Under the pieces are notes generated by a model. The model saw nothing but the letters and a program-made list of their open reading frames with translations, searched no databases and was not told the origin of the DNA. A stretch of DNA of 64,000 nt from Synergistota bacterium (lineage in GTDB: Bacteria > Synergistota > GBS-1), in contig JANXBX010000007.1 of NCBI GenBank assembly GCA_025060595.1, positions 1-64,000 of the forward strand, read 5' to 3'. Below, piece by piece: positions 11,042 through 64,000 of the stretch (position 1 is the first letter of the stretch; each line of letters begins with the position of its first letter). Position numbers and translations under genes: made by a program.

Positions 11042-11777
11042 TTCCAATAAGGAATTAAATCTTATCTCAGTAGCATGTAGAATAGTAGCCGAAACGCTTA
11101 TCAGATTAAGCGAATACATAAAGCCAGGTGTAAGCACCCTATACCTTGATAGAGTGGCAGAAAGGTATATCTTAAGCAGAGGGGGATTTCCTGCCTTTAA
11201 AGGCTATAAAGGTTATCCAGCCACATTATGCATTTCCATTAATAAAGAAGTAGTACATGGCATACCATCTCATTCTAAAATATTAAAAGAAGGAGATATT
11301 GTAAGTATAGATGTCGGAGTCAAATACAAAGGTTACTACGGAGATGGAGCATGGACTTTTCCTGTAGGTGAAATCAACGATGAGGCTAGAAAACTTATAG
11401 AAGTTACAAAGTCATCTTTAGATTTGGCCATAAGCATAGCAAAAGCAGGAGTAACCACAGGTGATATAGGAAACGCTATTCAAAGCTACGTAGAATCACA
11501 CGGCTTTTCCGTTGTAAGGGATTACGCAGGTCACGGAATAGGTAAAGAACTTCACGAGTTCCCTCAACTTCCTAATTTTGGTAAGCCCGGAACAGGTCCA
11601 AGATTGGAAGAAGGAATGGTTCTAGCAATAGAACCAATGGTTAACTCGGGGAGTTATGAGGTTGAGGTTCTACCAGATGGTTGGACAGTAGTAACAAAAG
11701 ATGGCAGTCTTTCTGCTCACTTTGAACATACTATACTTGTTAGGAAGGAGGATTCTTTAATATTAACCAAGATTTAG
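11031..11777 (+). CDS. map: Methionine aminopeptidase, type I
   Basis: MetAP type Ia, 248 residues, which removes the initiator methionine. The five metal ligands are seen in order: Asp in SIDVGVKYKG, Asp in YYGDGAW, His in GHGIGKELHE, Glu in AIEPM and Glu in HFEHTILV. Start TTG 11031 lies within the end of adk with AAGAGG ahead of it. Its last codons contain the Shine-Dalgarno of the next gene. Confidence 0.95.
   Translation: MVISSNKELNLISVACRIVAETLIRLSEYIKPGVSTLYLDRVAERYILSRGGFPAFKGYKGYPATLCISINKEVVHGIPSHSKILKEGDIVSIDVGVKYKGYYGDGAWTFPVGEINDEARKLIEVTKSSLDLAISIAKAGVTTGDIGNAIQSYVESHGFSVVRDYAGHGIGKELHEFPQLPNFGKPGTGPRLEEGMVLAIEPMVNSGSYEVEVLPDGWTVVTKDGSLSAHFEHTILVRKEDSLILTKI
11745..11751 (+). 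promoter_or_regulatory. Ribosome binding site for an ATT-initiated gene
   Basis: AAGGAGG inside the end of map, ten bases before the ATT codon at 11762. It is as strong as the sites of the ribosomal protein genes around it and serves no ATG, GTG or TTG in the downstream frame, so it decides the unusual start of the KOW gene. Confidence 0.75.
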
Positions 11778-12055
11778 AAAGCTTAATCGGTAGAGTTGTT
11801 ATATCTAAAGCTGGAAAGGATAAAGGAAAGCCATTTGTTATAATTGGTGTTGATTTTGAAAATGAAAGGCTTCTTTTGTGCGATGGCCAAAAGAGAAAAA
11901 TAGAGAATCCCAAAAGAAAAAACTTCATTCATATTCAATTTACTAATTATTATTTAGAAGATGTTAAAAAAAAGCTTCTTAGCGGAGAAACTCTATTTAA
12001 TTCTACTATAAAAGAGGGATTAAAAAGATTGACCGAAAAAAGGGGAGGTGTGTAA
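11762..12055 (+). CDS. KOW-domain RNA-binding protein (L14e-like), apparent ATT start
   Basis: A 97-residue protein in the slot between map and infA, where clostridia and relatives carry a KOW-domain RNA-binding gene. The KOW-type segment is LIGRVVISKAGKDKG near residues 7-21; the rest is basic and ends LKRLTEKRGGV. Role is probably ribosome-associated, otherwise unknown. The frame is closed by TAG at 11741-11743, and the codons from there to the conserved segment are GAA GGA GGA TTC TTT AAT ATT AAC CAA GAT and on, with no ATG, GTG or TTG. The only sensible start is ATT 11762, ten bases after AAGGAGG. A start-less pseudogene is unlikely because the whole frame is intact and conserved. Confidence 0.8.
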   Translation: MNQDLESLIGRVVISKAGKDKGKPFVIIGVDFENERLLLCDGQKRKIENPKRKNFIHIQFTNYYLEDVKKKLLSGETLFNSTIKEGLKRLTEKRGGV

Positions 12056-62342: not shown

Positions 62343-62993
62343 TTAGAACCTATTTATTTTAGATACTATCCAATTTACGAACTCCTCTATACCTTCTTCA
62401 GTTTCACAGGAGACTTCGAAAACTGGCATATCGGGCGCAATTCTCCTTATAGGCATATAAAATCTCTCCTTATTAAACTTAAAAAGAGGCAGTATATCAA
62501 TCTTATTCAAAACTATAGCCTTAGAAACCTTAACTACTACAGGATATTTCTCTGGTTTATCATCTCCCTCAGGAACGCTTAAAACCCCTATCTTGTAATC
62601 CTCTCCTAAGTCGAAAGCAGTAGGACAAACTAAGTTTCCTACATTTTCTATAAATAGGATCTCCATATCATCAAGAGGCAGCTCCTCTATAGCCTTGCCT
62701 ACCAGATTAGCATCCAAGTGACAACCACCCTCAGTATTTATCTGAACAACCGGAACCCCGGCTTTATGTATAAGCTCGGCATCCCTAATAGTTGTTAAAT
62801 CTCCCTCTATAACTCCTATCTTATATTTATCCTTTAACCTATTTATAACCCTTAAAAGTAGCGATGTTTTTCCCGCGCCAGGTGATCCAATAAGATTAAA
62901 GGTTACTATACCTTTTTCCTTGAAGATCTTCCTATTCGTCTCTGCTACCCGTTTCTCCGCTTCAAGGACTTTTCTCACTATCTTTATCTCCAA
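62343..62993 (-). CDS. hypB: Hydrogenase nickel incorporation GTPase HypB
   Basis: About 216 residues (TTG 62993; an in-frame GTG at 63005 is possible). P-loop NLIGSPGAGKTSLLLRVINR, GVIEGDLTT, the metal-binding EGGCHLDANLVGKAI and base-recognition VLNKIDILP. Inserts nickel into the hydrogenase large subunit with HypA. It has no N-terminal His-rich nickel store. Overlaps hypA by 32 or more bases. Confidence 0.9.
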   Translation of the reverse strand: MEIKIVRKVLEAEKRVAETNRKIFKEKGIVTFNLIGSPGAGKTSLLLRVINRLKDKYKIGVIEGDLTTIRDAELIHKAGVPVVQINTEGGCHLDANLVGKAIEELPLDDMEILFIENVGNLVCPTAFDLGEDYKIGVLSVPEGDDKPEKYPVVVKVSKAIVLNKIDILPLFKFNKERFYMPIRRIAPDMPVFEVSCETEEGIEEFVNWIVSKINRF

Positions 62994-63348
62994 GTTTATC
63001 TTCACTCCTTTCAATTTCAAGTCCAATTAACTCAAATTCATTTCCTCCATCAATATCAAGCTCCTCACTTCCACACTTAGGACAAGCTCCAAAGAAATCA
63101 TCAATATCAAAAGAGTGACCACATGAACGACACATACCTCTAAAAGGTACTTCCTCCAACTCAAGTTTAGCCCCTTTAGCTATACTTCCCTCAGCCAAAG
63201 AGCCAAAGGCAAAACTTAATAGGTCAGGAACAACTCCTACAAGCTTTCCCACCCTAACCCTAACCTTAAGTATCCTACATGCCCCATATTTAACTGCTTC
63301 CTCTAAAACTACACTAATTAAAGCTTCCGCTAAAGAGAACTCATGCAT
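62962..63348 (-). CDS. hypA: Hydrogenase nickel insertion protein HypA
   Basis: 128 residues: MHEFSLAEALISVVLEEAVK with the nickel-binding N-terminal His, and the zinc site CRSCG...CPKCG near 73-93. Delivers nickel to the large subunit. Overlaps the maturation protease gene by 19 bases. An acidic C-terminal extension follows the conserved core and is shared in sequence with the hypB start region. Confidence 0.93.
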   Translation of the reverse strand: MHEFSLAEALISVVLEEAVKYGACRILKVRVRVGKLVGVVPDLLSFAFGSLAEGSIAKGAKLELEEVPFRGMCRSCGHSFDIDDFFGACPKCGSEELDIDGGNEFELIGLEIERSEDKLGDKDSEKSP

Positions 63349-63797
63349 GTTTTTAATTTACTATTTATAAAGCTATAAAGTAATTTTTCGACTTCTCTAG
63401 CAATCTCTCGCGTTCTCCGACTTAGCCCAGCACCAAAGGAAAAATCTTCACCTTTTATACTTAATATCCAAGATTCCGGTTTATTTTTATAAATCTGATC
63501 AAGGAGGCATAAAAGATCTGCCGGATATAGCGTATGAGAAACATAGTTTAGGGGAGCATGGTGCTCCCCTACCTCTATTTTTCTTAAAGACCAAATTTCC
63601 TCACCAGCTGAAGCATCTATAAATATTAAATACCTTGCGTTTCTGAACTCTTCAATAAGCTCTGGCATAAGCTGATGTAGAAGGAGAACTTTTACCTTCT
63701 TTTCTCCTCCAAATCTAACTTTTACTCTTGCCCCTATCCATATGCCTACACCATCATCTTTTCTTAAGTAGTTTCCGTAGCCTATTACAACTATCAG
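63330..63797 (-). CDS. Hydrogenase maturation protease, apparent CTG or ATA start
   Basis: About 155 residues that cleave the C-terminal peptide of the NiFe-hydrogenase large subunit after metal insertion. The conserved N-terminus IVVIGYGNYLRKDDGVG (with nickel-ligand Glu/Asp positions expected in this family) and FIDASAGEEI are encoded. The frame has no ATG, GTG or TTG between its upstream stop at 63839 and an ATG at 63668, which would delete this N-terminus. CTG 63797 or ATA 63794 gives the right family start; AAAGG precedes ATA by 6 bases. Overlaps or directly adjoins the large-subunit stop. Confidence 0.8.
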   Translation of the reverse strand: MIVVIGYGNYLRKDDGVGIWIGARVKVRFGGEKKVKVLLLHQLMPELIEEFRNARYLIFIDASAGEEIWSLRKIEVGEHHAPLNYVSHTLYPADLLCLLDQIYKNKPESWILSIKGEDFSFGAGLSRRTREIAREVEKLLYSFINSKLKTCMSSL

Positions 63798-64000
63798 GAA
63801 CCTTTCACCAACTCTTTTATTTTGTTTCCTTCGGCATCATAAATCACAACCTGAAGTGGCATTTTACCAATAGCATGAGTAGCACATGAAAGACATGGAT
63901 CATAACATCTTATAGCAACCTCCAGCATATTTAAGAAACCCTCTTTTATTTCCGGTCCTCTTATATACTCTTTGGCAACAAGCTCCACAGCTTTATTCAT
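63794..64000 (-). CDS. NiFe-hydrogenase large subunit, C-terminal part (partial)
   Basis: The last 68 residues of the large subunit; the start is beyond the right edge, so ATG at 64000 is internal. The C-terminal nickel ligands are in CYDPCLSCATHA. The usual cleavage point is after the His, releasing an extension of about 26 residues ending ELVKGS. Group 3-type enzymes (F420- or NAD(P)-linked or methyl-viologen type) have such ends. Its protease and hypA, hypB follow. Confidence 0.9.
   Translation of the reverse strand: MNKAVELVAKEYIRGPEIKEGFLNMLEVAIRCYDPCLSCATHAIGKMPLQVVIYDAEGNKIKELVKGS

Follow-up and report, generated by a model that had tools for sequence, protein, structure and literature searches.

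A CTG codon as the probable start of a [NiFe]-hydrogenase maturation protease gene, and recurrent CTG starts at aligned positions in one bacterial family

Results

An ordinary [NiFe]-hydrogenase maturation protease without an ATG, GTG or TTG start

The protease encoded near the end of the window (the whole stretch of 64,000 nucleotides that was analysed, positions 1-64000 of the 101,784-base contig C7) is in all likelihood an ordinary [NiFe]-hydrogenase maturation protease, translated from the CTG at 63797 with the normal initiator tRNA and positioned there by the sequence GGTGA. Our support for this start, and for the other CTG starts described below, is comparative throughout. It comes from four draft genomes representing one family: the source genome G000 (34 contigs, 99% complete), G001 of the same genus, whose phylum we take to be Synergistota, and G002 and G003 of two other genera. 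The public record of G001 is the MAG 'bacterium 42_11' (LGFB01000048.1).

The gene belongs to a minus-strand operon with the order NuoE/NuoF-like subunits, NuoG-like Fe-S subunit, hydrogenase small subunit, large subunit, protease, HypA and HypB (Table 1), the subunit names being our own reading except where a profile match is cited. Its frame, which on the minus strand from 63839 to 63330 reads as a stop followed by CRRKQNKRVGERFLIVVIGYGNYLRKDDGVG... through to the terminal TAG, is bounded by the stops at 63839-63837 and 63332-63330 and contains no ATG, GTG or TTG before the ATG at 63668. An earlier note on this DNA had held that no ordinary start precedes 63668 and that the conserved N-terminus lies upstream of it. 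Reading of the frame and the position of the TIGR00072 match (69.5 bits against a cut-off of 47.45; residues 3-141 numbered from CTG 63797) confirmed both points. The ATG at 63668 was ruled out as the start, since the conserved N-terminus and the TIGR00072 domain begin upstream and initiation there would cost more than a quarter of that domain.

The partner expected of such a protease, a large subunit carrying the DPCxxC motif (DPCLSCATH) followed by 22 residues, is encoded directly upstream, and the protease N-terminus carries GYGN, matching the family's GxGN. HybD was the sole match when solved structures were compared by sequence, with an E-value of only 0.5; D15 of the protease lines up with HybD residue 16, and its D61 does not vary across the family. 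We take the HybD metal-binding residues to be E16, D62 and H93. The candidate metal-binding histidine of the G000 protease is that within YVSHTLYP. In the aligned stretch of the G002 protease (L005 277-729), ASKFLP stands where G000 has SHTLYP, and no histidine occurs there.

Table 1. Coordinates of the features discussed, in the window unless a locus handle is given
Feature	Position	Strand	Remarks
[NiFe]-hydrogenase large subunit, whole gene	contig 65221-63794	-	VhuU/frhA profile matches
Large-subunit C-terminal part	63794..64000	-	DPCLSCATH and 22-residue tail; stop TGA 63796-63794
Hydrogenase maturation protease	63330..63797	-	155 residues from CTG 63797; stop TAG 63332-63330; TIGR00072
Proposed start CTG	63795..63797	-	overlaps large-subunit stop TGA 63796-63794; same column CTG in G001, G002
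GGTGA, Shine-Dalgarno-like	63805..63809	-	7 nt before CTG; spacing kept in three genomes
hypA	62962..63348	-	ATG start overlapping protease end; TIGR00100, PF01155
hypB	62343..62993	-	TTG start 62993, aligned with ATG in G002; TIGR00073
KOW-like gene, between map and infA	11762..12055 (frame 11744-12055)	+	proposed ATT start 11762
Shine-Dalgarno of KOW-like gene, AAGGAGGA	11745..11752	+	9 nt before ATT; kept in G002, G003
Homoaconitase-type protein (G000)	L128 16868	-	proposed CTG start
HycI protease (G000)	L049 15142	+	proposed CTG start
AcpS (G000)	L003 9222	-	proposed CTG start
HisB (G000)	L151		proposed CTG start
PolX (G000)	L190		proposed CTG start
FtsW (G000)	L131 9208	-	single-genome case
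Radical activase (G000)	L061 7866	-	single-genome case
GntR regulator (G000)	L120 15133	-	single-genome case
Radical SAM protein (G000)	L137 10054	-	single-genome case
RecO (G000)	L053 4090	-	single-genome case

The CTG is kept at the same junction in two relatives

The protease comparison rests on three genomes (G000, G001 and G002); no protease match was found in G003. In both G001 and G002, whose proteases are 64% and 53% identical to that of G000, the gene adjoins the large subunit, has no ATG, GTG or TTG available, and carries CTG in the matching column 7 nt after GGTGA. The junctions read GGTGAAAGGTTC-CTG-ATA-GTT-GTA-ATA-GGC in G000, GGTGAAGGATCC-CTG-TTA-GCT-GTA-ATA-GGA in G001 and GGTGAGAGATCT-CTG-ATA-TCT-ATA-ATA-GGT in G002. 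Of the two start codons that the earlier note had favoured, CTG 63797 thus held up, being present at the same column in both relatives, while ATA 63794 (63794-63792, minus strand) was rejected, as its column is not conserved and reads TTA in the sister species G001. Most outgroup homologs have an ATG or GTG 3-5 codons before GxGN; the CTG stands four codons before. Read from the CTG, the protease would begin about one residue later than most homologs, a point against this start.

In the large-subunit frame, the C of this CTG falls at the third, fourfold-degenerate position of a codon (TCC in G000, CCC in G001, CTC in G002), and a single silent change at the CTG column would yield ATG, GTG or TTG in all three genomes. 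Fourfold-degenerate sites are near-saturated, agreeing with G000 at only 42% in G001 and 36% in G002, and a C of G000 at such sites is still C in 29% and 13% of cases, respectively. CTG makes up only 3.6% of the leucine codons of G000, and of the aligned leucine positions where G000 has CTG, G001 keeps the codon at 1 of 10 and G002 at 0 of 5. A shared CTG in two relatives that both lack an ordinary start is therefore more than a chance match.

These data also bear on whether the gene has decayed or been misread. The genomes are drafts and the G002 protease lacks the candidate histidine, but the proposed comparison with relatives gave CTG, not ATG, at the 63797 column in three separately assembled genomes, which excludes a sequence error; moreover, the frames are intact and protein identity is well above silent-site identity. 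Taken together, error or decay is a highly improbable account of the missing ordinary start. Equally improbable, in our judgement, is a -1 ribosomal frameshift late in the large-subunit gene that would join large subunit and protease in one fusion and dispense with a separate start. The protease frame is indeed open upstream of the CTG for 13 (G000), 9 (G001) and 9 (G002) codons, overlapping the large-subunit gene. However, no common slippery heptamer was apparent by eye (GTG AAA GGT TCC TGA; GTG AAG GAT CCC TGT TAG; GTG AGA GAT CTC TGA), the outgroup proteases are separate ATG or GTG genes, and no fusion is called for at the other genes that start at CTG. Folding of the local RNA gave no structure common to the three junctions.

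Reinitiation after the large subunit had been named in the earlier note as another route. As a full account, such termination-reinitiation would have ribosomes restart at any near-cognate codon beside the large-subunit stop, the CTG being no specific signal. The CTG does overlap the large-subunit stop in 3/3 genomes that carry the protease, and hypA and hypB likewise overlap their upstream genes. Yet the stop has moved to TAG in G001 and the CTG is retained there, indicating that it is no by-product of a fixed TGA, whereas the nearby near-cognate ATA has changed. Furthermore, the CTG starts of HisB and PolX (see below) lie well beyond the upstream stop in some genomes, and since CTG starts of the family are found up to ~50 nt past such a stop, CTG use here does not depend on a stop that overlaps the codon. 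We therefore consider reinitiation unlikely as the full explanation, although it is compatible with the junction and may help the CTG.

CTG recurs at aligned start positions across the family

We scored each gene for coding signal ahead of its first ordinary start and ranked the genes accordingly, a screen that makes no use of annotation. Among 377 gene calls (first 370 kb), a KOW-like gene at 11744 ranked first and the protease second. Further cases came from larger samples: 770 kb for G000, 400 kb for G003 and, as a control, 400 kb for G010, a genome from another family. Start columns were then fixed by homology across the four family genomes. The aligned start of HisB is CTG in 4/4 genomes, with ATG or GTG at 26 outgroup loci, and that of PolX is likewise CTG in 4/4. 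The homoaconitase-type (HacA-type) protein starts at CTG/CTG/GTG, each after an identical AGGTGA and 6 nt; HycI at CTG/CTG/TTG/ATG; AcpS at CTG/TTG, with profile position 1 exactly at the CTG; and Map at CTG/TTG. Including the hydrogenase protease (3/3), this amounts to 17 CTG starts among 22 copies of seven genes, and in some of them CTG interchanges with ATG, GTG and TTG at a fixed column. This recurrence supports the earlier suggestion of a generally relaxed start choice. Several other CTG genes have the stop of the preceding gene within or next to their Shine-Dalgarno sequence (AGGTGA, GGGGTGA), an arrangement that may compensate for the weak codon.

Four CTG starts (hydrogenase protease, AcpS, HycI and HacA-type) fall within the G000 sample, HisB and PolX lying outside it. 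At the reported 0.024% of bacterial starts (PMC11497404), ~0.2 would be expected among its 742 genes; that percentage rests on annotation, which discourages CTG, and is probably an underestimate. We also asked which codons follow Shine-Dalgarno sequences. A first statistic was too noisy; under a stricter version CTG was the top non-ordinary codon in G003 (6/106 exposures, mean 1%) and was not singled out in G000 (2/204). The case for CTG starts in the family rests mainly on the aligned start columns.

Starts other than CTG

The second non-canonical start that the earlier note had placed, without coordinates, in the window is probably that of the KOW-like gene. Three genera share its apparent start ATT AAC, preceded by the Shine-Dalgarno GGAGGA, with no ordinary start upstream; outgroup copies have ATG, GTG or TTG available. 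The protein has no match in Pfam, and its assignment as KOW-like is our own reading. By analogy with infC, the gene is possibly IF3-sensitive. infC itself appears to start at ATT in G002 (GGAGGTGA-TATGTT-ATT) and, in the control G010 (L110 8705 (+), G010:C1:208705), at an ATA that follows GGAGGTGA, no ordinary start being available nearby. The latter is the clear case in the control sample and matches the known rare-start use of infC; a TrkA-like gene was also flagged in that sample.

In G000 only, FtsW and a glycyl-radical-activase-like protein may use ACG, a GntR regulator may use ATA and a radical SAM protein ATT, while RecO lacks an ordinary start and its codon is unclear. Ten more window genes whose frames are open ahead of the first ordinary start were set aside: their profile positions agree with an ordinary start, except in one case that offered no N-terminal evidence. 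rpmJ had been suspected as a rare-start gene, but it has a TTG preceded by a good Shine-Dalgarno.

The initiator tRNA looks ordinary

An altered initiator tRNA was rejected as an explanation: matches to the G003 copy are 97-100% in all four genomes, and the copy that was read carries CAU and the three G-C pairs. The G003 initiator tRNA (L185) measures 76 nt against 77 nt in G010, the difference lying in the D-loop, and is otherwise ordinary. IF3 is present at normal length in all four family genomes. Its C-terminal motif (L074-L077) is EGW(S/A) in the family, EGRYM in most sampled outgroups and EGSYM in two; a link between the family motif and relaxed start choice is possible.

Discussion

Collectively, our comparisons point to direct initiation at the protease CTG. 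GGTGA, lying among the final large-subunit codons seven bases before the CTG, would position the ribosome there, ribosomes finishing the large subunit could hand over to it, and the usual initiator tRNA would presumably decode it as formyl-methionine. Given the weakness of CUG, expression of the protease may be low, and, more speculatively, the weak start might be retained because a helper that acts catalytically is required in far smaller amounts than its stoichiometric substrate. Full conservation of CTG in HisB, PolX and the hydrogenase protease suggests selection, while the start-codon swaps in the remaining CTG genes suggest drift. As a broader and distinctly more tentative reading, CTG could be a regular fourth start codon of the family, at work in some tens of genes, while ATT, and perhaps ACG and ATA as well, would serve more rarely; the cause would be looser discrimination by the initiation machinery.

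CTG thus seems to be a working start codon in this family that standard gene finders overlook, and annotation of the lineage likely truncates, misplaces or drops hisB, polX, acpS and the hydrogenase proteases. CUG is regarded as nearly unusable for starting translation in bacteria. The reason for its rarity next to GUG and UUG has been called unclear (PMC11497404), and a family in which CTG is conserved in some genes and swaps with ATG, GTG and TTG at fixed columns offers a natural system for that question. Rare starts as such are already known; in the part of the literature that was covered, our searches turned up no account of a lineage in which conserved CTG starts recur, so that it is the recurrence and conservation of CTG in one family that we found unreported.

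Compared with known systems, the operon resembles in layout the one that encodes HydABCSL, a bifurcating [NiFe] hydrogenase, in Acetomicrobium mobile (PMC8880783). Its protease is of the same family as the HybD/HycI maturation proteases and likewise hydrogenase-associated; unlike its outgroup homologs, which start at ATG or GTG, it appears to start at CTG. The same codon works at a very low level in E. coli reporters, with 0.86% of AUG activity (PMC11497404), and is also found in annotated genomes. There, ancestral starts have changed to CUG in 2 of 61,358 cases for AUG, 1 of 5,080 for GUG and 1 of 2,468 for UUG, that is, four switches among ~69,000 (PMC5622118), whereas the family has conserved CTG in at least seven genes. 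The ATT start of infC, repressed by IF3 in E. coli and others (PMC5472188), is likewise a conserved non-ordinary start behind a Shine-Dalgarno; infC, however, is one self-regulated gene, whereas the family CTG starts occur in several unrelated genes and are known here from sequence comparison. Streptomyces sigR offers a well-studied parallel, where a rare start holds one operon product below its partner and is misplaced by gene finders. The sigR start is a GTC, experimentally proven and IF3-repressed (PMC5472188), whereas that of the protease is a CTG supported by comparative evidence.
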